A stretch of 60,364 bases of DNA, from IMG/VR virus record IMGVR_UViG_3300045919_000149, positions 1 to 60,364 of that record; one strand, given 5' to 3'. Under the pieces are notes generated by a model. The model searched no databases and had not been told where the DNA came from. It worked only from the letters and a program-made list of their open reading frames with translations. Positions within the stretch are counted from its first letter, which is position 1. Each line of letters begins with the position of its first letter. The position numbers and the translations under genes were made by a program. Origin of the DNA: a virus. Below, piece after piece: positions 31,301 to 58,227 of this stretch.

Positions 31301-34300
31301 CCGCCGACGCCGCTGCGGCTGAAAAGAAGGACGCCGAAGAGAAGGCCAAGAAACAAGGTCGCGCCGAGACGCGCGGCATCGACATCCACTCGACAGATTT
31401 GGAAATCCTGAAAGAAGGCAGCCGCCTTGAAATGGAGCGCAACAAGGCTCAGAAAGCTGGCAACACCAAGCTATTCGACGAGCTGACCGACCAGATACAT
31501 GCGTTGGAGCGCGTGTACAAGAAGCGTCTGGATGAGTCCGTCAAGAAGGACGCGGACAAAGAGCAGAAAGAAAAGGAAGCCGCCGATGAAGTTTCAATCG
31601 ACGACCAGATCGAAGCTCTGAACGACAAGATCAACGATGCCGAAGAGGCAGGTAACGCCAAGCAAGTTACCAAGCTGGAAGCCGAGCGCCAAGCCCTGTA
31701 CGACAAGCGTGACGGTCTGGATGCGCCTGACGACGGTGAAGCACTTGTTCGCGACGATAAGTTGGCCGGTAACTCGGATGACGTTGCGTACGGCAAAGGC
31801 GATGCGGTCACGGACCCATACAAGTCTGGTAAAGAACTGCACGACGAGATAGCCGCATGGATGAACGTTGAGGAACTTCCACGCCACATCAAGATCGTGG
31901 ACACCGCCACCGACCTGACAGATTTGCAAGACCTTGGCTACGCGTTTAGCAAGGGCAGCCCGTTTGGGTGGGCCAAAGATGGCCGTGTCGTTATGATTGC
32001 CGACCGCATTTCTCGGGGTGACGGCAAGGGGGCATTTCTCCACGAAGTAGGCTCTCACTTGGGGCTGGACCGCATTCTGGGCAAAGAGAAGATTGACCGC
32101 ATCCATGAAGCTATCAAGGAGTGGGCAGCTCGGACTGATGGCTCCAAAGAGTCAGAAATCGCGCGGGAAGCCCTATCCCACGTGTTTATGGCGGGGACAA
32201 AGCCCCACCAAGAAGCCAACGAAGCAGTAGCGTATTTTGTACAAGTAGCGTTGAAGCGCGGTGTGGAACCGACTGCACTTAAAGGGTACGACGGCCGGTT
32301 TGCCAGCCTCATTCGCCAGATTTACGCAGCGTTCAAAGATGCCATCCGCCGGGTTATGCGGGGCAAGGACATCAACAAGTTGACCGCCGAGGATATGGTC
32401 AATATGGCCTACGGCGCAGCGCGGCTGGAAGTGGCAGGCAACTGGCATGGCACCGCTGCAGCTTTTCGCAAGTTCAACAGTAAGTTTGTTGGTACCGGCG
32501 AGGGTGCGCAAGCCTACGGCTGGGGCGCGGCGTACATAGCAAAGCGCCAAGGCATCGGCTCGGATTACCACGTGCGCGACGTGATGGCCAAGTGGAAAAA
32601 ATCCGTCACTGACCAGTTGGAAAAATACGCCGACTGGTACCCCAAGGATGAAATCTTGCACCCCGTAAACCGCTCAGAGTTGATTCCAAAAGACGCGCAG
32701 TTGGGTGACTTTAACCCCGGCAAACTCGCAAAGAAACTGCTGGAAGCCGGAGTTGATTACATCGACGTCGTGAACCACGACACCGGGGAAATTGAACGGC
32801 TGAATTTCAATCAGCGCAGCATTGGCAATTTGATGCGCGTAGACCACACGGTCCCCGACAACGCCATGATGATGTCAGACTTGCCCGTAGCCAAGCAGCA
32901 TGAGCACGTGCGCAATGTGCTGAATGAGTTGCTGGACAAGATGGACAAGAAGCTACCCGGGGAAGTGACGTCTTACCTTGACGACATGCTGGACCAAGCA
33001 AACATTGACCGTGATGAAATCACTGGCCACGATTTTGTTGGTAGCCCAGACTCGCACTTTGGTAAAGACGGGCTGCTGGCTCGCGCTATCGAAGACGGCA
33101 TATTTGACGACGCCCCTGACCATGGGCACGCCAAACGAGCCGCTGCTGAATATCTGAACTCGCTGGGCGTGAAGGGCACCAAGTTCTACGACAGCCAAAG
33201 TCGTGGGCCGGATATTTCGGCGGTGAATTATGTGGGTAATGACCGCCCGGACTATTTTCTCATGCAGCGACTAATGAGCGGTATCCAGTTTGAACCCGCT
33301 CGCAAGATTGCAATGGCCGGGCTGCGCAAAGACATAAAACATCTGGAGGCATCTGACGGCCCCAATAGCGCTTCGGTCTCTGACGCAAGAATGCGTTTGG
33401 AAGAGCTTAACCAAGCTAAGCCGAGCGATTACCAAATAGTCAAGCGCGAGCGTACGCACAACACCATCATTTTCAATGACAGGAACATCCTGCGTGTTGC
33501 ATCCCATCCGGGCGGCGACGTCGAGCAAGACTTGCATGGCGTGAAGTTTGGCAAAACCGTTGCCGCTAACATCTCCCGGCTGCCCGACCATCTGCAAGAG
33601 CCCGCGCGCACGATCACCGACCGTCTGAACCGCTGGGCCGGGGATGCGCTGAACCACGTGGTATTTACCCGCGATCTGGTGGCGCGAGGCGTGGCCAAGG
33701 GGCTCACTGCACTGGAGCACTACGACACGCTACGCGAAGCCCGTGATGCGCTGGCCGGTCACTTCCAGAAGATGGCGTTCAATGCGATCGAGCCGGTGCG
33801 CAAGTTCACACAGGAAGAGAAGACGGGTTTGAGCGCGTTCCTGCAGCACAGCACCCTGAACGGTGAGTGGGGCTACGGACCCAAGGCGACCGGCAAAGCC
33901 AAGGTGATGTTCGACCAGCTATCCGATCGAGCCCAGTCGGTGGCCAAGGCCATGTTCGCCCACGGCGATGAAATTCTCAAAGAGAAGAAAGCCGTCATCG
34001 AGAAAAAGGCTGCCGAGCTGTACGACGACATGCTCAAGGGTACGACCGGCGCAGAGCGCGAAGAGATTCTGGCCGAGAAGAACGGCTTCATGAAGAAGTA
34101 CAACACCCTCATGCAGATTGGCGAGGGTAAACCCTACGTGCCCGCGCGCCGCCACGGTGACTGGGTTGTCGTGGGCAAGTCGGACGCTTACCTGCGTGCT
34201 GAAGAGCGTGCAAGCCGCGACGGCGCAACCCGCGAAGACAAGAAGGCGCTGTACGATCTGGTGACGGACCCGCAGCACTACCTTGTGTCGGAAGCCCAGA

Positions 34301-36345
34301 GTGAGCAAGAGTCCAAGGCGTTGCGTCAGAACATGCGCGATGCGGGCTTTCCCGCCACGAAGGACCACACCTACTACAAGCCAAAGGAAGACTGGCAAAC
34401 CGAACTGAACGGCGGCAAGGGTGTGCTGGCCGGTATGTCGCGGCTGCGTCACCAACTGGAAAAGCTAAGCCAAGAAGCCCCGGCTGAAGCTGACCGGATG
34501 AAGTACAAAACCTCGGCCCGCTTGCTGACCAATATGTGGTTGGATGCGCTGAGTCAGTCGTCGTCCCGCAAAGCCGAGATGCGCCGCATGGGTGTTCACG
34601 GCACCATGGATATGGTGGGCTCGTTCAAGCAGCAAGCCAAGGGTGACGCGCACTTTATCGCTGGCATCACGCACAACGATGCCATGCTTACCCAGTTGAA
34701 GAAGGCCTACAAGCAGGCTGACAGCGGTGAGGGTGAAGATCGCACGACAAAGTTGCACATATACGACGAGTTCATGCTACGCCACGAAGGTAGTGTCAAC
34801 GCGGTGCCAACCCCTTGGGCCAACAAGATCACCAAGGCAACTGCCCTCTGGCAGATCGCAACAAGCCCAGCGCACTTCATTGGCAACTTGATGCAGCCGT
34901 GGACGATGACGCTGCCCTACTTGCAAGCGCACCATGGGTACGGTAAGGCAACCAGTGAGTTCTTCAAGGCATACAAAGAGATCGGTGACATCCTTGGCAA
35001 AACTGGTTTGCTCGACACCCTGAAGGTGTCAGACATGCCTGCTGACGTGCGGGCACCCATGCAGCGTTTGCTGGAGCTGGGTCGTCTGGACATCGGCATG
35101 AACACTGAGTACGGCTCCATGGAGCTGCGGCCCAAGAACATGGCGACTCGCGCAGCGCAAGCGGCAGCCGATCGCGTTGCCCAAGCCTCGTTGAAGATGG
35201 AATCTTTGAACCGGTTGGCCAGCGCTGCAGCCGCTTACCGGCTGGAGTTTGCCAAGCATGGAGATGCTGAGCGCGCTCTGCACTACGCGGGTGACGTGGT
35301 GGCTGAGACTCACGGTGACCACAGCCGCGCCAATGCGCCCCGGGTGTTCAACAACGGCTTTGGCAAGGTGGCATTGCAGTTCCGCAAGTTCCAGTTGGTG
35401 CAGCTCACTCAGATGGTCAAAATGATGGGCAACCTGAAGAACGCTGACCCGGCCGAGCGCTCGATCGCTGTACGCCACTTGGTGTACACCTTGGCCCACG
35501 TCGGTGTGCTGGGCGGCGCGCTGGGAATGCCCGGGTTCGGTACGTTCAGCGCCGCGTCTCAGACCCTGCAGAAGTGGCTGACCGGCGTGGATGGCCAAGA
35601 CTGGGAAACCAAGATCGAAAAGGCCGTTGGTGATCGCCACATTGCGCAACTGCTGCTTCGCGGCGTGCCCGGACTGCTGGGTGTGGACCTGTCCAAGAAG
35701 GTCGGCTACGGCGACATGCTGGGTATTGCGCCTTACACCGACGTGGACCCGACAGATCGCAAGAGCGTGCAAGATGCCATTGGCCAAGTTACCGCAGGCC
35801 CGTTCGGCGGGCTCGTTGGCCGCGCGGCGCAGTCGCTGCACCACATGTTCGTGGGCAACTATTACAAGGGCCTCGAAGGGTTGATGCCCCAAGGTATTGC
35901 CAACATCATGAAGGGTGCGCGTGAAGGCGGCTTTGCCCCAACACTTGGCGGTGTAACCAACACCAAGAACGACAAGCTGATGGACATCAACGCTGGCGAA
36001 GCGCTGCTGGAAGCCTTCGGGTTCGAGCCATCCAGCAAGGCCATGATGCAGTCGGAAACCGGTGCCATGATTAAGTCCACGGAAGACTTCAAGAACCGTC
36101 TGGAGATTCTGAAGGAGCGCTACAACAACGACGCGCGCAGCGGTTCAGCGGGCACGTCCACGGCGATCAAGGAGATGAACGATCTACGCAAGGAAATGGT
36201 CGAGCGCGGCTACCGGCCGACCCCTCTGGCCGACATCCTGAAGACGCCGATAGAACAGCTCAAGCGTCAGATGTTCACGACCCCGGGCGGTGTGCAGTAC
36301 CAGCCAAAGCAAACCGGTCGCGCGATCGATCAGCTTCCAAAATGA
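28324..36345 (+). CDS. Giant polyvalent internal virion protein (2673 aa)
   Basis: At 2673 residues this is the largest protein here, one fifth of the rightward block. It looks like a multi-domain 'polyvalent' protein delivered into the cell with the DNA. Residues 1-620 are low-complexity and Gly/Ala-rich, and 620-830 are Pro-rich. Charged helices span about 850-1170, with an HTH-like stretch near 880. A zincin-like motif LHEVGSHLGL has His1240, Glu1241 and His1244. From about 1375 to 1645, GTGEGAQAYGWGAAYIA and later LGVKGTKFYDSQSRG match the ADP-ribosyltransferase-like domain of polyvalent proteins. The C-terminal 1000 residues are helical, with RGVPGLLGVDLSKKVGYGDM near 2447-2466, a motif of large phage internal proteins. 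Confidence 0.8.
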   Translation: MAMNPAAKDSNAFASSNLSGGSANNAILGVPQNPSIPRGPQPTSAGLTPLAQQNNQAMGPQFWNTVSPGTPGPTADAPPDYATQIAQHNAQMLQQMQAQYGQQPTTPSTQPTYGIGPNNELQVGDTVVPMGDNPTMAANLLQTNGHQSVSPTNLKPGFRMVNASDVQQYLSSIDRGAGHAAYETGKQFLGGVAGGGLDTLGKAATWAGAPGIGQSLQNAGGAADRFLGTDQPADTLGHGTVASGFINNARSAGLAVPIAAANVGLTAAGMPEVAAAMDVGVVAPLFGASDAQNTYESLIKQGVPQDQANQAGWRQFFISGGTQAALGFAGGRIMANGGAYAGIQRLRQAVSGGELTADQAAQMVTNPQFMKRFATNEGVNQATQATGMAAQGALSAANNNAAGGAPEDVGDAALGGAQAGLYMGAMMAPLAGYHQLQDSGRRAQLGRHLSDPTQPVDLLRATQMEDAAKAVQPEVGALVGAAPAQKWMEGQQVRSDKLLGDANQQRFLAQRAAETAPPPAVETPPPPPPVAPVVTPEQELSGLKLDDTLKAIGIGKKKQASVRPLAEQAVAAGIDLESAEAETLVKALKSGKLGAAQLEIDRLKGSNDGTSGLAAAGNAGVGGAGGNKPAGSVGAGVPVSGESGGVRTGTGEPAPSVQPPVAGGNAGVPKAPVASRTATGHENTGKLAPVEVGQKPAVAPIPTAPVRPPEAPRPDFHLEHPSGVPHPEWHLPEEPAAPEQTDNMRPNLGKETGQKHLFPMGARGELPKTGEAPKRVVKAEELAPAQAAVNQGVPIEQVGEHAAPVIETAEDAKKSRKRQEEEAAAEAAKTPEQRAAEAKQTAAETTKIPPVERFIAALGELAGTRLHAAANGENWQAMATREGVHHTTPQKYINKIKAERIDAAMNDGKITPDEARAMKEALDIAQGKAVQRKTEAAIAQDGGVSSAMDDNLSAGEKQELMAGGGMQVHGADNMGVKTKAEAEAEGQQSKAIAADAAAAEKKDAEEKAKKQGRAETRGIDIHSTDLEILKEGSRLEMERNKAQKAGNTKLFDELTDQIHALERVYKKRLDESVKKDADKEQKEKEAADEVSIDDQIEALNDKINDAEEAGNAKQVTKLEAERQALYDKRDGLDAPDDGEALVRDDKLAGNSDDVAYGKGDAVTDPYKSGKELHDEIAAWMNVEELPRHIKIVDTATDLTDLQDLGYAFSKGSPFGWAKDGRVVMIADRISRGDGKGAFLHEVGSHLGLDRILGKEKIDRIHEAIKEWAARTDGSKESEIAREALSHVFMAGTKPHQEANEAVAYFVQVALKRGVEPTALKGYDGRFASLIRQIYAAFKDAIRRVMRGKDINKLTAEDMVNMAYGAARLEVAGNWHGTAAAFRKFNSKFVGTGEGAQAYGWGAAYIAKRQGIGSDYHVRDVMAKWKKSVTDQLEKYADWYPKDEILHPVNRSELIPKDAQLGDFNPGKLAKKLLEAGVDYIDVVNHDTGEIERLNFNQRSIGNLMRVDHTVPDNAMMMSDLPVAKQHEHVRNVLNELLDKMDKKLPGEVTSYLDDMLDQANIDRDEITGHDFVGSPDSHFGKDGLLARAIEDGIFDDAPDHGHAKRAAAEYLNSLGVKGTKFYDSQSRGPDISAVNYVGNDRPDYFLMQRLMSGIQFEPARKIAMAGLRKDIKHLEASDGPNSASVSDARMRLEELNQAKPSDYQIVKRERTHNTIIFNDRNILRVASHPGGDVEQDLHGVKFGKTVAANISRLPDHLQEPARTITDRLNRWAGDALNHVVFTRDLVARGVAKGLTALEHYDTLREARDALAGHFQKMAFNAIEPVRKFTQEEKTGLSAFLQHSTLNGEWGYGPKATGKAKVMFDQLSDRAQSVAKAMFAHGDEILKEKKAVIEKKAAELYDDMLKGTTGAEREEILAEKNGFMKKYNTLMQIGEGKPYVPARRHGDWVVVGKSDAYLRAEERASRDGATREDKKALYDLVTDPQHYLVSEAQSEQESKALRQNMRDAGFPATKDHTYYKPKEDWQTELNGGKGVLAGMSRLRHQLEKLSQEAPAEADRMKYKTSARLLTNMWLDALSQSSSRKAEMRRMGVHGTMDMVGSFKQQAKGDAHFIAGITHNDAMLTQLKKAYKQADSGEGEDRTTKLHIYDEFMLRHEGSVNAVPTPWANKITKATALWQIATSPAHFIGNLMQPWTMTLPYLQAHHGYGKATSEFFKAYKEIGDILGKTGLLDTLKVSDMPADVRAPMQRLLELGRLDIGMNTEYGSMELRPKNMATRAAQAAADRVAQASLKMESLNRLASAAAAYRLEFAKHGDAERALHYAGDVVAETHGDHSRANAPRVFNNGFGKVALQFRKFQLVQLTQMVKMMGNLKNADPAERSIAVRHLVYTLAHVGVLGGALGMPGFGTFSAASQTLQKWLTGVDGQDWETKIEKAVGDRHIAQLLLRGVPGLLGVDLSKKVGYGDMLGIAPYTDVDPTDRKSVQDAIGQVTAGPFGGLVGRAAQSLHHMFVGNYYKGLEGLMPQGIANIMKGAREGGFAPTLGGVTNTKNDKLMDINAGEALLEAFGFEPSSKAMMQSETGAMIKSTEDFKNRLEILKERYNNDARSGSAGTSTAIKEMNDLRKEMVERGYRPTPLADILKTPIEQLKRQMFTTPGGVQYQPKQTGRAIDQLPK

Positions 36346-45164: not shown

Positions 45165-45385
45165 TTTTCCAGTGCTTCTTCGACTAGGAAGAGGTTAATT
45201 AAACGCTGGGATATATGCAGCTCCACTCCAGCGTGATTCAGGATGTTAAATCCCGACGGATTCGGTAGGCTCCCTCGCCTACGCATGTCAACAAGCTCCG
45301 ACTTGTAATCACGAAGAACGTCGCGCAGGGTAAGTGCGCAATCGTCCAACGTCCCTTGCTCCGTAAAGTTAGTGGGCTTCACCAT
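45161..45385 (-). CDS. Hypothetical protein (74 aa)
   Basis: A 74-residue, mixed-charge protein. The ATG at 45385 lies inside the end of the polymerase gene (17-bp overlap); the longer frame to 45490 is only the polymerase shadow. It ends by an ATGA overlap with the next gene. The C-terminus LFLVEEALEK is helical. No function can be given. Confidence 0.6.
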   Translation of the reverse strand: MVKPTNFTEQGTLDDCALTLRDVLRDYKSELVDMRRRGSLPNPSGFNILNHAGVELHISQRLINLFLVEEALEK

Positions 45386-47336
45386 AGCTGTACCCCATTC
45401 CTGATTCAGACCATTTAATAAGCGCTGGCCACCATGTGGTCGGTTCACGCATGATGGCATCCAGCTTGTCGCGTACTGCCTCGGCCTCATGCAGTTTCAC
45501 GATGCAAACGTATTCGTCATGGACCAGCAACGCTGGCTTGATACCGTGGCGTGTGTACATAGCCCGCACAACATCGCGCAGCACATCGGCTGCCAGCGCT
45601 TGGACAATGTTCTCGTCGACTTTCCCGGCGTAGATGCGCGCCCGGTTGCGGCCGGTGCCATACCACCATTCCTTCTTGCCCTTGTCGCCGATTTCCTGAT
45701 GCAGCCCGGGGTACCAAATCTTGCGTCCGCTTGGCAGTGCGATGTGGTCCTTGCCGGTCCTGCACAAGCCCCACGGGTCGATCGCTCCGTCGTTGCCGTT
45801 GTAGATGTCGGTCAGCGCGTTGTGGCAGGTACGCCAGCCCTCGTAAATCTCGCTGTACTCTTCACGCCACTTGTCCGTGATCTCTTGCGCTTCATCGAGC
45901 GTGATGTCCACGCCGCCCATCATCTTGGCGATGCGCTGGAATGTCGCAGCCCCCGCACCGAAGCCCAGCCCCAAGTGAGCGATCTTGCCGATCTGCCGCT
46001 GGTTCTTGGTCACGTCGGCTACGCTGGGCACCGTGTACAGGTTGGCCGCGAACTCACGGTACAGGTCAGCCTTGTCAGGGCTTGCATGAAAGAGCTTCAT
46101 GCTGGAGCGCACTTGCCACAAGAAGTGGTTGATGCGCAGCTCGATACCGCTAAGGTCAGAAGTCACAACCATGTAGCCGCTGGGTGCGATCAGTGAGTTA
46201 CGCAAGCAGTCGGAGAGCTTCGGTTTGGTCGGGTCGATGCGTGGCAGGTTCTGCGGGTTGAAAATCTCACCGCTCCAGCGACCAGTGGTGGCCGCACCTG
46301 CGTAGCGCAACGGCATGGGCAGCTTACCCTTCAAGCGGCCCGAGGCTTCGAGGAACTTGGCAATGCGCGTTTCCAGCAGGGTGCTCTTGGCCTCCAGCCG
46401 CGCGGTCACTGCCATGGCCACTACGGGGTCGTCGTGTTCTTCCAGTGCAAGGAAGGCCTCATCTGTCTTGGACAGCGCCGGTATCTGCTTGTTCGGGTTG
46501 GTGGGAGACGCCTTCATCGGGATAGGCACGCCGCGCTTGGTCAGTATTTCACCGAACTTCGCCGCAGACATGAGCTGCATGCGCGTGAACTCAGCAAGCT
46601 GCGTGCCGGTTTCCAGCACGTGGACCACCTGTTCTACCTTGGACATCAGCAAGTCTGTAAGCTCCTTGAGTGAGCGCAGCTTCTCTTCCTGAACAGACAG
46701 CAGGGTGCTGCGTAGAAGGTCGCCGTCAACAAGGAACTGGGGCTCCGTCAGCATGCGCGTGGTCAGGTCGATCTGCAGCAGCTCCTTGGATGGGAAGTCG
46801 CGCGCCAGTAACTTGAACAGCCCACAGCATTGCTCGGTGTCGTCCTTGTTGTAGACCGCCATGGCCTTGATCTCTTCCTTGGTGAAGTCCTTCAAGTGAC
46901 GCCCCTTGGTGTTGATGAGCGCTGACTGGTCCTTCACGCCACTGATGCCCATGGCTTCCAGTTCAGACTTGAAGTGCGCGACCAGCTTGGACAGTGAGCC
47001 GCCCACGTCCGCGTTGTACTTGGAGCGTGCCATAGCCAGCGTGCAACCCCACATCTTTGGTGTGATGCCAAAGCGCCACGCGAGGATGAGCGCATCGAAG
47101 CCCGACATGTTGTGGCCAATGGCCATGCCCTTGTCCCATGCAACGCTGGCCAACGCTTTGCGAATCTCATCCTCGCCGAAGTAGACCATGGCAGCGCCGT
47201 TGATGCCGACCTTCATGCACATCGAGATGATTTCCGTTTCCGGGTGCATCACGTACTCGATGTTGGTCATCTTCGAGAGTGTGTGGGTCACGCTCCAGAA
47301 AGTTTCAAAGTCTATGTAGACCGGTGTGATTTTCAT
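45369..47336 (-). CDS. DNA polymerase, family A (655 aa)
   Basis: The replicative polymerase, T7-type in length (T7 gp5 is 704 residues). The 3'-5' exonuclease is present: YIDFET (Asp9, Glu11) and GHNMSGFDALILAW. The polymerase motifs follow: A is SDLSGIELR with Asp394, B is RQIGKIAHLGLGFGAG near 450-465, and C is VHDEY with Asp607. All catalytic acids are intact. There is no thioredoxin-binding insertion that I can see. It works with the primase-helicase and SSB-like protein encoded nearby. Confidence 0.95.
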   Translation of the reverse strand: MKITPVYIDFETFWSVTHTLSKMTNIEYVMHPETEIISMCMKVGINGAAMVYFGEDEIRKALASVAWDKGMAIGHNMSGFDALILAWRFGITPKMWGCTLAMARSKYNADVGGSLSKLVAHFKSELEAMGISGVKDQSALINTKGRHLKDFTKEEIKAMAVYNKDDTEQCCGLFKLLARDFPSKELLQIDLTTRMLTEPQFLVDGDLLRSTLLSVQEEKLRSLKELTDLLMSKVEQVVHVLETGTQLAEFTRMQLMSAAKFGEILTKRGVPIPMKASPTNPNKQIPALSKTDEAFLALEEHDDPVVAMAVTARLEAKSTLLETRIAKFLEASGRLKGKLPMPLRYAGAATTGRWSGEIFNPQNLPRIDPTKPKLSDCLRNSLIAPSGYMVVTSDLSGIELRINHFLWQVRSSMKLFHASPDKADLYREFAANLYTVPSVADVTKNQRQIGKIAHLGLGFGAGAATFQRIAKMMGGVDITLDEAQEITDKWREEYSEIYEGWRTCHNALTDIYNGNDGAIDPWGLCRTGKDHIALPSGRKIWYPGLHQEIGDKGKKEWWYGTGRNRARIYAGKVDENIVQALAADVLRDVVRAMYTRHGIKPALLVHDEYVCIVKLHEAEAVRDKLDAIMREPTTWWPALIKWSESGMGYSYGEAH

Positions 47337-51595: not shown

Positions 51596-51744
51596 TTGCA
51601 ACTCCACACAATCGTCTTGGTTTCGTCAGCGGCTGAGCACACCGTGAACTCTTGCATTACGATGTAGTCTTTGATGCGAAGCCGCGCGACCGGTTGACCA
51701 GTGCTGCAGCCAGCAAGCATGAGCACGATGAGTAAGTACTTCAT
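51592..51744 (-). CDS. Small lipoprotein (50 aa)
   Basis: A 50-residue protein, MKYLLIVLMLAGC at the start: a positively charged then hydrophobic signal with the lipobox L-A-G-C, Cys at residue 13. The mature part is about 38 residues with two further Cys. The ATG at 51744 overlaps the preceding stop, and its own stop overlaps the next ATG, so it is a real member of the coupled operon. Small phage lipoproteins in early regions can block superinfection at the outer membrane, which is a possible role here. Confidence 0.7.
   Translation of the reverse strand: MKYLLIVLMLAGCSTGQPVARLRIKDYIVMQEFTVCSAADETKTIVWSCK
51696..51706 (+). repeat. GACCAGTGCTG motif, copy in lipoprotein gene
   Basis: An exact copy, encoding Ser-Thr-Gly on the coding strand directly after the lipobox Cys. 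Confidence 0.5.
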
Positions 51745-52475
51745 GGCATTTCCTTGAATGATTCGTTATATTGAGGAACGTCACCGAGTGGATATACCTT
51801 ATCCACTGCGGCCTTCGCGCCGTTTTGTTTAATATAGCAGGCCAACCCGGTCGGGTCAAACAACTCATTAGTTATATATGCGTTGCGTATAGTGTCCCAG
51901 TTCACATATACAGCCCCGGGCTCCATGACCTTGGACATAGCCTCGAACGGGCGCAGCCACAGCTTGAATGCCTTGCGATCGGCCTTACGCTGGGGCGATG
52001 TGATATCGCCTAACCGTGCTGGGCAGTCGCGTGACTTGGCTACATACAACAGGTTGTCTACCAAGCGTAGCTGTACCGGAAACACCAAGCCGGATTTCTC
52101 CGGGTTCATGCCGATCAGAACTTCTTTGCCGTGGGTAGTCTTGCGGGTGTAGTTGGCTGCACCAAAGCCCAGTACATCCCACTGGAAGCTCGATGAACTC
52201 TGGCTGCCATGCACGTTGTACCAGACCTCACGCTGCTCGCTGGTGCCGATTTGCTCGGGTTTGTAGTAGCGTGCCATCGATGTGGAGTACAGCACCACGT
52301 CATAGTAATCCTTGCCGCGCAGAACATACATGTGGGGCTTACGCAGGTTGTCGAGTGGGCGCATGTTTTCGTACCACGCCTTAGCCCGGGTGCCTAGAGG
52401 TTTGTCAAAGAACGCTGCGCACTCTTCGTAGTTGCGTGCGTACTTTGCGTGTCGTGTTTGTAGTCCGAATGCCAT
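51741..52475 (-). CDS. Hypothetical protein (244 aa)
   Basis: A 244-residue soluble protein with many aromatic residues (KAWYENMRPLDNLRKPHMYVL, DYYDVVLYSTSMARYYKPEQ). It has no motif I can place. I chose the ATG at 52475, one base after the upstream stop; the frame start at 52520 lies in the neighbouring gene. It may be a nucleic acid-related or host-directed protein; nothing decides. Confidence 0.7.
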   Translation of the reverse strand: MAFGLQTRHAKYARNYEECAAFFDKPLGTRAKAWYENMRPLDNLRKPHMYVLRGKDYYDVVLYSTSMARYYKPEQIGTSEQREVWYNVHGSQSSSSFQWDVLGFGAANYTRKTTHGKEVLIGMNPEKSGLVFPVQLRLVDNLLYVAKSRDCPARLGDITSPQRKADRKAFKLWLRPFEAMSKVMEPGAVYVNWDTIRNAYITNELFDPTGLACYIKQNGAKAAVDKVYPLGDVPQYNESFKEMP

Positions 52476-52476
52476 G

Positions 52477-52632
52477 TTACTTAGGCTCCACGATTTTGCA
52501 CTCGATACGACCGCCGCCAACCATACCGGCGCTGCCGTATTTCTGGCATTCGCGTACTGTGGCTTGATCGCCCAACAGATTGCCGATTACTATGTACATA
52601 ATAAAAATGCCTACGTATGCAAGTGTTTGCAT
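52477..52632 (-). CDS. Small membrane protein (51 aa)
   Basis: A 51-residue protein with one hydrophobic segment at the N-terminus (LAYVGIFIMYIVIGNLLG) and a short hydrophilic tail with two Cys. The ATG at 52632 has AAGGAG upstream (leader AACTCAAGGA is shared with other genes). It could be an inner-membrane peptide that interferes with the host; the role is unknown. Confidence 0.65.
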   Translation of the reverse strand: MQTLAYVGIFIMYIVIGNLLGDQATVRECQKYGSAGMVGGGRIECKIVEPK

Positions 52633-52794: not shown

Positions 52795-53952
52795 TTATTC
52801 CATATCAAAGTGAATTGTCTCTCCGTGCGATGCAACTTTGTCGGAGCTGATGCACCACACAACCGGGTAGCCCGGGTCGGTGCCAAAGCCGGTGTATCCA
52901 TCGGTCAGGCAGACAAATACCTCGGGGGTGATGTTCTCAGCCGCGCACCAGCGAAAGCCCGCTGTCATGTCCGTGCCGCCGCAGCCGTCATACTCCAGCG
53001 ATACCTCTTCGCCCTGCTCGAACACAACGTGCTTCTGCACCCGTGTATCCACGTAGATGACGTGCACGCGCTCGGGGTTGCACATCTCCACGATACGCGC
53101 GAAGTGGCCCGCGTAGTAGCTCATCTCCTTCTTGGTCACTGAGCCCGACACATCGACTTCCAGCACGATGGTGCCCATGGTTTGCGCCTGACCAGTGCTG
53201 GGCAGGTAAGTACCCGCGCCGCTGTAGCGACGGTTCGGCCGAGCCCACGTGTAGCCTGACTGGATGAACTTGACCATGTGGCGCTCAAGGATTTCATACC
53301 ATGGCGTCTTGACCGCAAGTATCTGGGCCACCAGCTTCTCCAGCACACTGGGCATCTTGCCCTGCATCTTGGCTGCCTGCGCTGCTTGAGCGATCTCGTT
53401 CTGCAGCTCATGGGTATGCTCTTCGATCTGCTCGGGAGTCAGAGGCTCACCGGACTCGTCGATGTCACCGCCGATACCGCCCGGGTTATCGTCGTCATCG
53501 TCACCGAAGCCGTCGTATATATGGTCAGCGGTCTGGTCCATGGACCCGGGCATGTTGATGCCACCGTCGATAAAGTCGCCGACCTTGCATTGAATCAGTG
53601 TGTCGTTGATGACTGCATCACCTGCACGATTCCAGCGCCCGGGTTTGCGGTGGCCGCGCCGGTTGATGTGGTCGAAGAGTTCGTGACCGACCTCATGGCA
53701 CAGCAGAAACTGCAGGTTACCCACAGTAAAGTCTTTGGCCCAGCGTGGGTTGACTTTGATCTGGCCTTGCCGGTTGATGCTGGCTGTGGGCACGTTGTAG
53801 TCGTATATGACTTCGCGCTTGAGCAGGATGACCGCCCAGAACGGATGCTGCAGAACGATCTGCGTCTTGGCCTTGCTGACGTTGAAGTCAAAGACCTTGA
53901 GTTCACTTGCGGTGAGTACGTTGGTTGAGTGGGTTGGCAGGACTTGGGTCAC
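52795..53952 (-). CDS. Zincin-VWA protein (DUF2201-like, 385 aa)
   Basis: Two domains. The N-terminal part carries the metallopeptidase motif CHEVGHELFDH (His86, Glu87, His90). A very acidic linker follows (about 148-185, FGDDDDDNPGG). The C-terminal von Willebrand A domain has an intact MIDAS: DVSGS at 267-271, GGTDMT near 325-330 and LTDG at 349-352. This is the plan of the VWA-like/putative metallopeptidase family (COG3864-type) that usually partners with MoxR AAA+ ATPases. The GTG start at 53952 has GAGG upstream. It is likely a substrate-adaptor or protease in a remodelling complex with the ATPase at 56260-57276. Confidence 0.85.
   Translation of the reverse strand: MTQVLPTHSTNVLTASELKVFDFNVSKAKTQIVLQHPFWAVILLKREVIYDYNVPTASINRQGQIKVNPRWAKDFTVGNLQFLLCHEVGHELFDHINRRGHRKPGRWNRAGDAVINDTLIQCKVGDFIDGGINMPGSMDQTADHIYDGFGDDDDDNPGGIGGDIDESGEPLTPEQIEEHTHELQNEIAQAAQAAKMQGKMPSVLEKLVAQILAVKTPWYEILERHMVKFIQSGYTWARPNRRYSGAGTYLPSTGQAQTMGTIVLEVDVSGSVTKKEMSYYAGHFARIVEMCNPERVHVIYVDTRVQKHVVFEQGEEVSLEYDGCGGTDMTAGFRWCAAENITPEVFVCLTDGYTGFGTDPGYPVVWCISSDKVASHGETIHFDME
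53190..53200 (+). repeat. GACCAGTGCTG motif, copy in zincin-VWA gene
   Basis: An exact copy, read on the coding strand as Ser-Thr-Gly, between the two domains of the protein. Confidence 0.5.
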
Positions 53953-54151
53953 GGTAATACCTCGGTTTAGTAAAGTGGGGGTCGCCCTCTTCGATAGAGC
54001 GAATCTGGGCGCTTAGCTCTTTGAGCCATGCGTGGTTGAACGGGACCAACCAATCCTTGTGGCCACCGGCCAGCAGAAACTCAGCCTTGAGCCCTGCATA
54101 GCGCAGCCGTCTATCCTTGCGGGTTTGCTGCAGTCGGTGCTTGCGTTTCAC
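53903..54151 (-). CDS. Basic hypothetical protein (82 aa)
   Basis: An 82-residue basic protein (MKRKHRLQQTRKDRRLRYAG at the start) whose last 16 residues overlap the zincin-VWA gene by 50 bp out of frame. Its upstream boundary is an ATGA overlap. The basic N-terminus suggests nucleic acid binding. Not recognised. Confidence 0.6.
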   Translation of the reverse strand: MKRKHRLQQTRKDRRLRYAGLKAEFLLAGGHKDWLVPFNHAWLKELSAQIRSIEEGDPHFTKPRYYRDPSPANPLNQRTHRK

Positions 54152-54357
54152 TTCATCTTCTCTTGGGCGATCATGCCCGCCACGTAGTCCTTGTTGAGCA
54201 TGCTGACCGACACCTTCTGGTCGGGTGCCAGCGTGTAGACATACCCCGGGCCCGACTCGTAGGTAGCCTTCAGCGGCACAAGCTCGGCTATGGCCTCGGC
54301 CAAGCGCAGGGGCAGCATGAACGTGCCCTCGAATTGAACGTATGCTTCAGGTTTCAT
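54148..54357 (-). CDS. Hypothetical protein (69 aa)
   Basis: A 69-residue protein with FEGTFMLPLRLAEAIAELVPL in the centre and a C-terminal VSMLNKDYVAGMIAQEKMK. GGGAG precedes the ATG at 54357, which overlaps the 38-residue gene's stop. It looks like a small alpha-beta protein. Unknown. Confidence 0.65.
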   Translation of the reverse strand: MKPEAYVQFEGTFMLPLRLAEAIAELVPLKATYESGPGYVYTLAPDQKVSVSMLNKDYVAGMIAQEKMK

Positions 54358-54470
54358 GTGAACTCCCATGTAATGTCTTTGTTGAAACGACGGCGCTTTA
54401 CCCAGTAGGGCAGCGCCCAGCCCACGTTGGTTTCGACAACGATGAGTCGTCGTTTAAGGTAGACCCTCAT
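54354..54470 (-). CDS. Very small basic protein (38 aa)
   Basis: A 38-residue protein reading MRVYLKRRLIVVETNVGWAL at its start, with ATGA overlaps on both sides and AAGGAG six bases before the ATG. The double coupling makes it credible despite its length. It is basic and aromatic. Function unknown. Confidence 0.65.
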   Translation of the reverse strand: MRVYLKRRLIVVETNVGWALPYWVKRRRFNKDITWEFT

Positions 54471-54724
54471 TCCATTCTCCTTGCAATGTAATCGGCTATC
54501 GCCGCGTTGATGGCATCCATCCGGTTAGCTTCCGGGTTGATGCTCGGGTTGCTCCAGTCGCTGTTGCCCTTGGGTCCGTTGGTCAGGCAGCTCTGCCACG
54601 TCCACCCACCTTGGGGCTCGGGGTACACGGAGCCGATGATGTACCCCTTGTCATCCTTGATGTACTGGTGGCGCGGTGTGTGGCTAAGCCACGGGTTGGG
54701 TGCTTCCTCGCAGGTAAAGATCAT
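54467..54724 (-). CDS. Hypothetical protein (85 aa)
   Basis: An 85-residue protein with PNPWLSHTPRHQYIKDDKGY and GGWTWQSCLTNGPKGNSDW; a C-terminal helix NAAIADYIARRME. Two adjacent ATGs exist (54727 and 54724). I prefer 54724 because the ribosome site GGAGG then has four bases of spacing and not one. No family known. Confidence 0.6.
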   Translation of the reverse strand: MIFTCEEAPNPWLSHTPRHQYIKDDKGYIIGSVYPEPQGGWTWQSCLTNGPKGNSDWSNPSINPEANRMDAINAAIADYIARRME

Positions 54725-54915
54725 CATGCCTCCAGTTTGATTGCCACCCAGTGTGCGACCAGTGCTGCTTTGGCGTCCTTGCAGTAACGCACGCGGTGTT
54801 GTGAGCCCTCGGCAGCCCATATCCAGACGCGCTTACTGTGCCGAAATACCATGCCCATGGTGCCGCCTTTGTCACCGCGCAGTAGCCAGCCATTGGGGCA
54901 CTTCACCCAATTCAC
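54724..54915 (-). CDS. Hypothetical protein, GTG start (63 aa)
   Basis: A 63-residue basic protein (CPNGWLLRGDKGGTMGMVF) ending with the helix AALVAHWVAIKLEA, which is close to the ends of the Cys-rich proteins in this block. The GTG at 54915 overlaps the upstream stop. Its Ala-Leu-Val codons carry an exact GACCAGTGCTG. Confidence 0.6.
   Translation of the reverse strand: MNWVKCPNGWLLRGDKGGTMGMVFRHSKRVWIWAAEGSQHRVRYCKDAKAALVAHWVAIKLEA
54758..54768 (+). repeat. GACCAGTGCTG motif, copy in 54724-54915 gene
   Basis: An exact copy, encoding Ala-Ala-Leu-Val on the coding strand. Confidence 0.5.
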
Positions 54916-55814
54916 GAAAAGTAGTCGGCCAACTTCTTCGTTGCCGCCTCCAGATTCGCCTTGGCCGTTGCACGCACATCTTCGTCGCCCTTGATGCTGT
55001 CGATGCTGAACGTGTAGCCCTTGACCATACGCTCGATCTCAGCGATTTCAGTCAGCAGGGCAGGTGAGGCATCGATCGCCAGCTTGCGGGCCAGCTTGCA
55101 TCCATCCAGCACGTTCTCCAGCACGCTTGCATGGAAGCGCTCACCCTTCTCGCCCTTGTAGGTGCCAAGCCGTGTGGTCAGGTACTCAAGGGGCTTCAAC
55201 ATGCGCTCGATGGTTGCGTTGTTGGTATCCGCCAGCATCTCGCTGAACTGGGCACGCACAGCTTCCTTATCGGCGTCGTCCATGTCAAAGAGCGGGTGGG
55301 ACTCGTTGGGCAGTGGCACCATGCGGAAGTCAAAGCTGATGCGCTGGCCGAACTCGATGGCGCTTGGATACTGACTCGGGTCGGCTGCACCGTGCACCTT
55401 GCCGTAGTTGCGGTAGGCGATGTCATCGAGTACCAACTGGTCGTAAACCGGCAGTACGTGGGTCTTGTGTGTATCCACCACAGCGATCAACTGGCGCAAC
55501 CCGTTGGTGTACTCGAAGATGTTATCGCCGCGCACCAGCCGCTTGTCGCCGCAGCGCTCGGTGTTGTCGCAGTGGTAGGCGTATACCTCAGACACTGCCT
55601 TCATGAGCTTCCAGACCGGCGTGCCTTCCTTGCGGAACAGCTTGGTAAAAGCGGTGGCCGATGCGTCTGAGTTGCGCAGCAGGGCCGTAGCCGTGTTGTC
55701 GCGCTTGACCAGTGTTGTCCTGCGGATAACCAGCTTGGCTTCGATGGCCTTGTCGCTGAGTTTCGCGATCTTGGGTTCGACGGATGTGTCGATGCTTGTC
55801 CAGTTCATTGTCAT
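54912..55814 (-). CDS. Third component of the AAA+/VWA operon (300 aa)
   Basis: A 300-residue helical protein between the zincin-VWA and MoxR genes. Features are an N-terminal basic part (LVIRRTTLVKRDNT), a centre with YAYHCDNTERCGDKRL, and charged helices in the C-terminal half (LLTEIAEIERMVKGYTFSID). In phages with MoxR/VWA pairs a third protein of this size is often present, sometimes of the DUF3150 type. The similarity here is only in size and helical content. It may bridge the ATPase and the VWA protein. GGAG precedes the ATG at 55814. Confidence 0.7.
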   Translation of the reverse strand: MTMNWTSIDTSVEPKIAKLSDKAIEAKLVIRRTTLVKRDNTATALLRNSDASATAFTKLFRKEGTPVWKLMKAVSEVYAYHCDNTERCGDKRLVRGDNIFEYTNGLRQLIAVVDTHKTHVLPVYDQLVLDDIAYRNYGKVHGAADPSQYPSAIEFGQRISFDFRMVPLPNESHPLFDMDDADKEAVRAQFSEMLADTNNATIERMLKPLEYLTTRLGTYKGEKGERFHASVLENVLDGCKLARKLAIDASPALLTEIAEIERMVKGYTFSIDSIKGDEDVRATAKANLEAATKKLADYFS

Positions 55815-55815
55815 T

Positions 55816-56025
55816 TCAGTTCTCCAGTTTCAGAGTGATGTAAGCAAGCCGTGAGGCTTCGTGGTCTTCTATCCAAATGCATTTGTGTGTATAGCATCCT
55901 CCTATTGCGTCGCTCAGTTGGGTGCAGCGCTGGTCCTCGAATGTTTCGCCCTCGGTCTGGGCGTTGTGGTTGACTGCGCACCCGTCGCAGTCGTGTATCT
56001 CTGGCACGCGGATGTATGTGGTCAT
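55816..56025 (-). CDS. Cys-rich small protein, family member 1 (69 aa)
   Basis: Sixty-nine residues with C-x2-C at HDCDGCAV, a third Cys at RCTQL, and C-x4-C at CYTHKC. It ends in an aromatic strand and helix, CIWIEDHEASRLAYITLKLEN. The five Cys could bind zinc. It is one of at least seven proteins of this plan between 55.8 and 59.3 kb. The gene ends two bases before the start of the 300-residue gene. Confidence 0.75.
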   Translation of the reverse strand: MTTYIRVPEIHDCDGCAVNHNAQTEGETFEDQRCTQLSDAIGGCYTHKCIWIEDHEASRLAYITLKLEN

Positions 56026-56279
56026 GATGCTTCCAGCTTGAGTGCGATGTATTCAGCCAAGCCTTCGGGGGTGTCAGGTATCCAGATGGTCGAGCCACAC
56101 CAGTCACCATCAAGTGCTTCCTTGATGGCGGCACAACCCGGGCTGCGCATAGTCTCGTGGCCGTTGCGGAAGCTGCAACCCATGCACATCAATTCCCCTT
56201 CGTTATCGTCGCCGTTGGTGTAGGCGATGGGCTCAGGCATACGCTTGTATGCCCTGCCTCTATATGAGAACGTCTGCAT
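56022..56279 (-). CDS. Cys-rich small protein, family member 2 (85 aa)
   Basis: An 85-residue protein whose start at 56279 lies inside the end of the MoxR gene (20-bp overlap, different frame). It begins with a beta motif MQTFSYRGRAYKR, then LMCMGCSF (C-x2-C), PGCAA, DWCGST and the family ending TIWIPDTPEGLAEYIALKLEAS in two parts. The four Cys spacing is like the other members. Start choice rests on the frame; the ribosome site is weak. Confidence 0.7.
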   Translation of the reverse strand: MQTFSYRGRAYKRMPEPIAYTNGDDNEGELMCMGCSFRNGHETMRSPGCAAIKEALDGDWCGSTIWIPDTPEGLAEYIALKLEAS

Positions 56280-57276
56280 TCTCGGCAGCCCACGTCTGGA
56301 ACGCACGGGTACGCTTGATCTTGGGCTCGACCTTGATCGCGTCCTTGATGCACATGACGCGCATCTCAGGCTGGAAGCGGTTGGTGTATGTGCACACCGC
56401 CTCGAAGTTGTCCGCCGTGGATGCCCGGGCAAGGGCTCCGAGGACTGCAAAGCGCACATCGAGCTTGGCGGGAATAGCCGCTGTCGTGGGGTTGGCGATG
56501 AGTGTGTCGATGTTAGGCAAGTCATCGAACAGGTCCTTGAACGTACAGTACTCGATGGCACGGCCTTGGCCAACAGAGCCTGCCACGTTGTCACGCTCGA
56601 TATGCTTTGGCAGTGTGCGCGGCATGCGTGCAACATCTTCCCATGTACGCGGCGTTGCGTTGGCGTAGCGGTTCGGGTCAAAGTCGACCAGTGCTGCGCC
56701 CTTCATGAAGCGATGGTACTGAATCAGCTCGATGGGAAAGTCCATGTCCTGTGCATACGCAATCCACTCGTCCAGATTCTCGGTGTAGTCCAGACGACGC
56801 GTGCGCCCTGCGAACTTGGATGGAACACGCATGGCACCAGACTTGTCTTCGGTGCGGTTGCCAGTGGCCACGATGTGGAGATGGTCGGACAGAGCCATGT
56901 CACCGGCAAAGCGGTCGTAGATGATGCGGCATGCCGCGTTGAACATGGGCAGTTGTGCATCGCTGAACTCTTCGAGCAAGAGTGCTACGCGTCCTGTGCC
57001 CTTGCGCATCTTCCAGAACATCTCAGGCGGCACCCAGCGGGTGAAGTCGCCGATGTTGTTAGGTGTGCCCAGCAGATCGACCGGGTCACGCGAGGACAGT
57101 GTCAGCTCGAACAGTGTCTCGCCTTGGATAAAGCCCAGCTCGTTGAATGCGTCACGGGCACACGCTGACTTGCCGCCACCGGGCTGGCCCATGATAGCGA
57201 ACACGGTCTGGTTGGCGTCGGGGCGATCTTGGCTGAACTGGGCGACGACCGATTGTTTAACTTCTGAGTATTTCAT
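56260..57276 (-). CDS. MoxR-type AAA+ ATPase (338 aa)
   Basis: A 338-residue AAA+ protein. Walker A is GQPGGGKS at 30-37, Walker B LLLEEF at 99-104, sensor 1 ATGN ending at Asn140, and arginines in FAGRTRRLDY near 155-164 fit the finger. The short region DLLGTPNN before Walker B is typical of MoxR/CobS-type proteins, which act as ATP-driven chaperones with VWA partners (RavA-ViaA, CbbQ-CbbO, CobS-CobT). The VWA partner here is at 52795-53952. CAAGGAAATC provides the ribosome site. Confidence 0.9.
   Translation of the reverse strand: MKYSEVKQSVVAQFSQDRPDANQTVFAIMGQPGGGKSACARDAFNELGFIQGETLFELTLSSRDPVDLLGTPNNIGDFTRWVPPEMFWKMRKGTGRVALLLEEFSDAQLPMFNAACRIIYDRFAGDMALSDHLHIVATGNRTEDKSGAMRVPSKFAGRTRRLDYTENLDEWIAYAQDMDFPIELIQYHRFMKGAALVDFDPNRYANATPRTWEDVARMPRTLPKHIERDNVAGSVGQGRAIEYCTFKDLFDDLPNIDTLIANPTTAAIPAKLDVRFAVLGALARASTADNFEAVCTYTNRFQPEMRVMCIKDAIKVEPKIKRTRAFQTWAAENADVLI
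56686..56696 (+). repeat. GACCAGTGCTG motif, copy in MoxR gene
   Basis: An exact copy, encoding Ala-Ala-Leu-Val on the coding strand. Confidence 0.5.
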
Positions 57277-57304: not shown

Positions 57305-57520
57305 TTACAGGCTGGCGTCGTTGCCTTCTTCTAACAGTGCTTCGATGTATGCTTGCTCCCTTATGAACAGGTATCCGGTGCCGCATGCGTTGTGGCACGA
57401 CTTACCAGCCATGACTGGCTGATATAGCGGGCAGTGGTTGCAGCCGATTCCAGTCGCAAACCCTTTGCCCATCTTCGCACGAACGCATGGCTCGTCCTTT
57501 ACAAGTAGTCGCTCGATCAT
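57305..57520 (-). CDS. Cys-rich small protein, family member 3 (71 aa)
   Basis: A 71-residue protein starting MIERLLVKDEPCVRAKMG, then IGCNHCPLY (C-x2-C), SCHNACG (C-x3-C) and an aromatic end YLFIREQAYIEALLEEG. It is a clear paralogue of the adjacent member 4 over the whole length. The start overlaps the upstream stop (ATGA). The four-Cys arrangement suggests a zinc knuckle. Confidence 0.75.
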   Translation of the reverse strand: MIERLLVKDEPCVRAKMGKGFATGIGCNHCPLYQPVMAGKSCHNACGTGYLFIREQAYIEALLEEGNDASL

Positions 57521-57723
57521 GGTGTCTCCAACAGAATTGCTATCCACACATGCTCACGCACCCACACGTATGAGTTACCGCAGCTCGAATTGCAACCGTC
57601 TGCTTCGCTTGCGTAGTGTGGGCATTCTATGCAAGGGTTATTCCAGTCGTAATCGCGGGTCGATCGCAAACCCACTCGAACGCACGGTTCACCGTTGACC
57701 AGTGCTTTGTCGCCGTGGTTCAT
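57517..57723 (-). CDS. Cys-rich small protein, family member 4 (68 aa)
   Basis: A 68-residue paralogue of member 3: ALVNGEPCVRVGL, PCIECPHY (C-x2-C), GCNSSCGN (C-x3-C) and YVWVREHVWIAILLETP. Coupled by ATGA overlaps on both sides. Tandem placement with member 3 shows local duplication. Confidence 0.75.
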   Translation of the reverse strand: MNHGDKALVNGEPCVRVGLRSTRDYDWNNPCIECPHYASEADGCNSSCGNSYVWVREHVWIAILLETP

Positions 57724-58010
57724 GGTGCACCCCCCAGTCGCAGCTCGACGGCTAGTCGCAGAGGCACGAACACAGCCGAGCGTTTATCTACGAGGCGATT
57801 GTCTGCATGGCACGGCGCGTCACTGAAGTCTTTTATTAGTGGACGTATCAGGTAGGCGCAGTTGCTGTGCTTTGTTTGCGGGTTGAACACGAAGTGCGGG
57901 CACAGGTGGCACGGGCTACCCCACTCCAGCTCATAGTCTTCGTGGTGTATGAACAGCGTCGTGGGTACAAGCGCGTACTCTTTGTCATCGACAGTGATGC
58001 GCCGCCACAT
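57720..58010 (-). CDS. Cys-rich small protein, family member 5 (96 aa)
   Basis: A 96-residue member with MWRRITVDDKEYALVP, SPCHLCPHF (C-x2-C), SNCAYL and DAPCHADN, ending SAVFVPLRLAVELRLGGAP. An insertion separates the last two Cys compared with members 3 and 4, and His residues may join metal binding. The ATG at 58010 has GGAG nine bases upstream. The open frame extends further but overlaps member 6. Confidence 0.7.
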   Translation of the reverse strand: MWRRITVDDKEYALVPTTLFIHHEDYELEWGSPCHLCPHFVFNPQTKHSNCAYLIRPLIKDFSDAPCHADNRLVDKRSAVFVPLRLAVELRLGGAP

Positions 58011-58011
58011 G

Positions 58012-58227
58012 CTATGACTCCAAACGCAGGACGACTGCTTGCGTCTCATCGAGCCACACACCACCGGAACATTTATGCGTTGCGCAACCGCTGTCTCGAA
58101 CACTGAATACGCACAGCGCGCATCCCTTGGCATCGTATTCGCTATTAATGATCTCATGGTCTTCACGAAGCACGAACACCGCGTGTGGGTGTGTGGTGCT
58201 ACGCGTCCACGACTTGAGGGTGCTCAC
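58012..58227 (-). CDS. Cys-rich small protein, family member 6 (71 aa)
   Basis: A 71-residue protein with KGCALCVFS (C-x2-C), SGCATHKCSG (C-x4-C) and the end GVWLDETQAVVLRLES, aligned with member 1 at the CATHKC/CYTHKC element. It starts at a GTG (58227) that overlaps the upstream stop. The N-terminus is Thr/His-rich. Confidence 0.7.
   Translation of the reverse strand: MSTLKSWTRSTTHPHAVFVLREDHEIINSEYDAKGCALCVFSVRDSGCATHKCSGGVWLDETQAVVLRLES

Follow-up and report, generated by a model that had tools for sequence, protein, structure and literature searches.

Whether three genes packed into one viral operon encode the parts of a single machine is the question raised by IMG/VR record IMGVR_UViG_3300045919_000149, a linear virus record of 60,364 nucleotides that we analysed at its full length (hereafter the window). 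The tightly packed operon lies entirely on the minus strand of the list of open reading frames (ORFs) and carries the genes for an AAA+ ATPase (56260..57276), a 300-residue protein (54912..55814) and a protein combining an HExxH motif with a MIDAS-bearing von Willebrand factor A (VWA) domain (52795..53952), just where a preliminary description of this DNA had placed them. On balance, we lean toward the reading that the trio is one ATP-driven protein-remodelling machine of the replication stage, likely acting in mid-infection on a host or phage complex. Its two-gene core of ATPase and VWA protein is already known, and the three-subunit form appears to be unreported in the searchable literature.

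The three proteins

The 338-residue ATPase, which resembles gp24 of phage N4, had been described as an intact MoxR-type enzyme with Walker A at residues 30-37, and this description holds. The motif, GQPGGGKS, is conserved in 47 homologues, across which G35, K36, N140, R158, P209 and R210 are invariant and the acidic pair of Walker B is D or E in every member. N140 corresponds to sensor 1, and one of the two conserved arginines, R158 or R210, may serve as the arginine finger; sensor-2-like residues are likewise present. The single sequence gave no match in Pfam; it matched phrog_1297 at 3.1e-59, and a profile of the 47 members found midasin (1.7e-38), NorQ (3.6e-7) and CbbQ (2.6e-6) in the PDB, each of them an AAA+ protein whose function involves a VWA domain or partner. 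By profile and motif, the protein is assigned to the MoxR/CbbQ/midasin clade of AAA+ ATPases.

The 385-residue product of 52795..53952 is N4 gp25-like, belongs to phrog_1314 and matched PF13203 (DUF2201_N, a putative metallopeptidase) at 6e-36 and PF09967 (DUF2201, VWA-like) at 1.6e-19. Its HEVGH motif is followed by a further invariant histidine at +9 (HExxHxxxxH). H86, E87, H90, H95, R98, N108, D112, N116 and Y146, together with the MIDAS residues D267, S269, S271, T327 and D351, are invariant in 46 homologues, so that these motifs are not a matter of chance. The HEVGH and intact MIDAS first read from the letters are thus upheld by Pfam and by conservation, and profile matches and conserved motifs agree with the original proposal of an AAA+/VWA pair of the MoxR/CbbQ/midasin kind. 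In Foldseek, the C-terminal half of the AlphaFold model (predicted local distance difference test, pLDDT, 87.7) matched VWA domains, including Ro60 (2.6e-4) and MDN1-MIDAS (2e-3), and the metal site DxSxS...T...D is present within this VWA fold. In the N-terminal half, H86, E87 and H90 lie on a model helix (residues 77-92) preceded by three short strands and followed by a helix with the invariant N/D/N residues, an order of elements that a minimal zincin would show; judged from residue conservation, H95 and D112 are candidates for the third zinc ligand. Profile searches with this half gave weak matches to MJ1213 (9e-4) and an M48 peptidase (1.5e-3), and no zincin was among the Foldseek matches listed; the putative zincin assignment therefore draws on Pfam and motif conservation rather than on a fold match, and of the zincin-VWA architecture proposed earlier the structural search confirmed the VWA half and not the zincin half. 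The label "HNH endonuclease" attached to phrog_1314, which many phage records also carry, was rejected, as the members of the family are DUF2201_N plus DUF2201 proteins. It is possibly a carry-over from the HNH homing endonuclease whose gene separates gp24 from gp25 in phages like G7C.

The 300-residue protein alone had no match in Pfam, PHROG or NCBIfam, nor a direct match to PF11348 (DUF3150). Its relatives provided the connection: 7 of 52 match PF11348 directly at E<=0.01, a hidden Markov model (HMM) of only four plasmid proteins of the DUF3150 group found it at 1.3e-7, and an HMM of a distant clade of relatives found it at 3.7e-22, where a shuffled-sequence control reached E=20 at best. 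A homologue in cyanophage MinM2 is annotated DUF3150. The AlphaFold model (pLDDT 90.9; predicted template-modelling score, pTM, 0.83), alpha-helical with a small beta part, had no PDB match at E<=0.001 in the fold search and matched a predicted phage DUF3150 structure in Foldseek (1.3e-12; TM score 0.72). Through intermediate family members and predicted fold, we classify it as a divergent DUF3150 protein. Its invariant residues (D39, T85 and R281) do not resemble a catalytic set, and for this reason a structural or adaptor subunit seems the more natural reading.

Recurrence of the trio in phages, plasmids and bacterial genomes

The preliminary description had predicted a third protein of conserved size linked to the pair and had called for a survey of the linkage across phage genomes. 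We scanned 80 IMG/VR loci, the 80 best matches to the VWA family of the window, with models of the three proteins and clustered them at 95% identity, which left 40 fully flanked clusters in which presence could be judged. The expected linkage recurs: all three genes were found in 35 of the 40, the ATPase and VWA genes only in the other 5, and none of the 40 lacked the ATPase. At 70% identity, 22 clusters had all three genes versus 2 with the pair only. In all 65 loci having the complete trio the genes share one strand, mostly in the order ATPase-DUF3150-VWA (57 loci) and otherwise as ATPase-VWA-DUF3150 (7) or DUF3150-ATPase-VWA (1). We considered whether another gene replaces the third one in L008 and L009 and rejected this: the 178-192-residue gene found there belongs to a family that is also represented beside DUF3150 in L016, and the two loci have therefore simply lost the third gene. 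Among isolated phages, members of the pair are common (522 and 606 records) and the third protein was detectable by tblastn in only three records, all with one identical protein; cyanophage MinM2 carries the same trio. Comparing the window with phages by blastn was uninformative, and a scan of genome contigs gave two loci only, one of them partly fused or degraded.

The three proteins also co-vary. In the 20 loci that combine the full trio with a long DNA polymerase, near-identical records included and no significance test applied, the pairwise distances correlate at 0.85 (ATPase-DUF3150), 0.90 (ATPase-VWA) and 0.92 (DUF3150-VWA), and the correlations of trio distances with those of the DNA polymerase of the same phages are 0.61-0.68. 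Given the polymerase, the partial correlations are 0.75 (ATPase-DUF3150), 0.86 (DUF3150-VWA) and 0.84 (ATPase-VWA). The module appears to move as one unit.

Outside phages, the ATPase-DUF3150-VWA trio occurs on Burkholderiales plasmids (Simplicispira, Burkholderia, Cupriavidus and Variovorax), with homologues of all three proteins encoded in the order seen here. DUF3150 was also found in 9 of 369 gammaproteobacterial genomes sampled; a VWA gene follows it in 9/9 loci, CobT-like where scanned, and a CobS-like ATPase gene lies within about 3.5 kb in 8/9. At these loci (L117-L125), DUF3150 stands between the CobS-like AAA+ and CobT-like VWA genes, and no metallopeptidase match was found in the CobT-like protein. 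Taken together, the plasmid and gammaproteobacterial loci indicate that DUF3150 goes with AAA+/VWA machines whose VWA proteins come from two subfamilies. A gene of the lambda-exonuclease family is adjacent in L120, which suggests mobile elements with phage-like recombination genes. The plasmid copies differ in their surroundings: a PRTRC ubiquitin-like system, with proteins matching Prok_Ub, Prok-E2_D, Prok-JAB and ThiF, lies on the same strand 6-12 kb upstream of the trio in L095/L102 (NZ_CP062805.1) and in related plasmids of Burkholderiaceae, and the distance is within 12.5 kb in 31 of 33 measured plasmids, which are themselves interrelated. A PRTRC partnership as a core part of the trio was rejected, because Prok_Ub was found neither in 36 phage records nor in the Simplicispira and Variovorax trio plasmids.

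Among the closest known systems is the gp24/gp25 pair of N4 (Schitoviridae), a homologous ATPase and a DUF2201_N/DUF2201 VWA protein encoded in the same order beside replication genes; in the window, too, these two genes lie close together on one strand. The difference is the third gene: no DUF3150 gene was detected between or near the N4-type pair, and what intervenes there is ORF38 in LUZ7 or an HNH homing endonuclease in G7C. The label "rIIA/rIIB-like" given to N4 gp24/gp25 (PMC9525291) is unsupported, because in LUZ7 the homologous proteins gave matches to AAA and DUF2201 models. Jumbo phages have a pair of a MoxR-type ATPase and a VWA protein with an N-terminal metallopeptidase, for which a virion-assembly role has been proposed (Iyer et al. 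2021, PMC7824862); these phages are of another group, and the passage on their pair mentions no third subunit. For the pair, the earlier suggestion of an undescribed system therefore does not stand.

Other machines share the general design. The motor profile of the window matches midasin, NorQ and CbbQ, and its partner, like theirs, has a MIDAS VWA domain, whereas sequence identity to midasin, NorQ-NorD and CbbQ-CbbO is low. To our knowledge, those machines contain neither a metallopeptidase domain nor a DUF3150 subunit. The MoxR-vWA ternary conflict systems likewise add a third, defining component to the pair, which may be VMAP, iSTAND, FtsH or a beta-propeller (PMC7159879). They are enriched in multicellular bacteria, whereas the present trio is phage- and plasmid-borne with a DUF3150-like third protein, and no Pfam match to VMAP, iSTAND or FtsH was found among the operon proteins. 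In the literature searched, which covered open-licence papers only, DUF3150 is not named and no report of an ATPase-DUF3150-VWA trio was found.

The operon and its neighbourhood

As described earlier, small genes are linked by overlaps within the operon; these are of 4 nucleotides (54912-54915, 54148-54151 and 56022-56025), typical of phage operons. Between the third-subunit and VWA genes lie one or more small ORFs at 54467..54820, which overlap ORF 54724-54915 and had no family match in a Pfam scan, then ORFs of 73 residues (54148..54369) and 82 residues (53903..54151) that share a 4-nucleotide overlap. The latter runs 50 nucleotides past the VWA gene's start if, as we assume, that gene starts at the putative GTG at 53952. 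Two small Cys-rich genes of the CxxC...C type sit between the ATPase and middle genes, one at 56022..56279 (putative start; homologues in L003 and L005) and one encoding 69 residues at 55816..56025. The interleaved Cys-rich proteins noted before are thus present, and members of their small paralogue family accompany the operon mainly in the nearest relatives (L003-L005); the Cys-rich genes are outside the recurrent unit. More CxxC...C...C ORFs lie around the operon on the same strand (57305-57547, 57517-57723, 57720-58166 and 58012-58227). At least two pairs are paralogous (57305 versus 57517, 2e-8; 56022 versus 55816, 1.8e-4), and the four Cys-rich ORFs scanned had no Pfam match. Downstream of the operon, a 259-residue protein without assigned function (51741..52520) is conserved in the nearest relatives only (L003, L004 and L005).

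Judged from their translations, the minus-strand genes from 36.4 to 60.1 kb include, besides the trio operon, a primase/helicase, a nuclease-like gene and a DNA polymerase of the family-A type with an exonuclease (45369..47336), and the plus-strand genes from about 1.8 to 36 kb encode terminase, portal, coat and other structural proteins. On the plus strand, a 2673-residue ORF with an HEVGSH motif (28324-36345) probably encodes a large polyvalent protein of the virion that has a metallopeptidase-like stretch itself, and a 753-residue ORF (9850-12111) contains many near-identical repeats of the type SSATTDGQDLSAASVAAIAAG.

Candidate roles of the trio

When and on what the trio might act is best approached through its position. 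A homologous DNA polymerase gene lies on the VWA-gene strand in all 34 loci where it is visible, downstream of the VWA gene in all but L068, and in LUZ7 genes for a helicase and a DNA polymerase come after the gp24/gp25-type pair. N4 gp24 and gp25 count among the 14 core genes of N4-like phages and are middle transcripts in N4, and the list of 13 virion proteins for RPP1/RLP1 contains neither (Chan et al. 2014, PMC4193335); according to a later paper, they are absent from small Vibrio phages of the N4-like group (PMC9525291). The replication-arm position and middle transcription together favour a role in replication or takeover over one in virion assembly. A chaperone and maturation protease that folds, assembles or trims capsid or tail proteins, as with the MoxR-vWA pairs of jumbo phages and Acidianus two-tailed virus, nevertheless has a published proposal behind it (PMC7824862). 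Presumed middle-expressed virion genes also lie near gp24/25 in some N4-like roseophages, and the cyanophage S-TIM66 pair adjoins Hsp20 and virion genes. We regard such a role as unlikely here, with the trio on the strand opposite the terminase-portal-coat arm and the same trio on plasmids, which make no virion; the absence of gp24/gp25 from the virion counts for less, as a chaperone need not be packaged. Because of S-TIM66, the role of the pair may differ between phage lineages.

A motor and a substrate-docking domain coupled with an intact HExxH domain would also suit a protease that recognises and destroys a host protein, for instance in a defence or restriction complex. The carriers are phages, plasmids and possibly further mobile elements that face the same host barriers, in keeping with such a purpose. 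We consider this improbable: the PADLOC defence-system library had no family matching the three proteins, and proteolysis is not the shared function, because the gammaproteobacterial CobT-like version has no metallopeptidase match. We give about as little credence to the view that only ATPase and VWA protein cooperate and DUF3150 is a passenger through linkage. The third gene is indeed missing from several relatives and its position varies in 8 loci, but the linkage recurs in phages, a cyanophage, plasmids and bacterial genomes and with two VWA subfamilies, and the distances of the three proteins co-vary closely. The metal-handling function first suggested, a chelatase or cofactor-insertion machine of the CobS-CobT or CoxD-CoxE type, would account for the broad superfamilies of motor and VWA protein and for the matches of the gammaproteobacterial DUF3150 partners to CobS and CobT models, weak and far below the equivalog cut-offs. 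It is very improbable, because CobN or the Mg-chelatase large subunit was found in none of 29 records (the window and 28 related records), and the VWA partner bears a peptidase-like domain instead.

Several observations weigh against a three-subunit machine of the replication stage. L008, L009, L066 and L085 are among the relatives that lack the third gene, which was also not found in the N4-like phages LUZ7 and G7C, so the pair does not depend on DUF3150 everywhere; the 80 loci are biased towards close relatives of the window; physical linkage alone could yield the distance correlations; the zincin fold is backed by Pfam and by weak profile matches of about 1e-3; and the surroundings of the S-TIM66 pair would fit a different stage.

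Our best reading remains a ternary remodelling machine of the midasin/CbbQ type with a built-in metallopeptidase, its physical complex, hexamer, activity, timing and target all being predictions. CbbQ-CbbO is one example of an AAA+ ring acting through a VWA protein bound to substrate. Midasin and RavA-ViaA offer further analogues (discussed in PMC7159879). By analogy with all three, the 338-residue protein would form the motor ring and drive a conformational change through the substrate-bound VWA protein. The 385-residue protein may dock substrates or adaptors via its Mg2+-bridged MIDAS domain, and docking through a metal-bridged acidic residue is plausible because the site is intact; its putative zinc-metallopeptidase domain could clip the presented substrate. 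The DUF3150 protein would be a dedicated third subunit that couples the motor to the VWA protein or specifies the substrate. Made together with the replication genes, the machine would most likely act in mid-infection on a protein complex, of host or phage, that takeover or genome replication requires, and would take this complex apart, activate it or process it. More tentatively, DUF3150, with no detected solved structural relative, might be the signature subunit of an unrecognised ternary AAA+/VWA class in phages, plasmids and integrated elements, with alternative VWA types (metallopeptidase-DUF2201 or CobT-like), that remodels a complex met by many mobile elements at replication or establishment.

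The trio is probably a widespread, uncharacterised protein-remodelling machine. For a decade, N4 gp24 and gp25 have stood in lists of N4-like core genes without an assigned function; with a third subunit and occurrence in plasmids and bacteria, two orphan genes and DUF3150 become a single machine open to testing. Were it proteolytic, this phage-encoded machine would combine a motor and a peptidase with a docking domain of its own.

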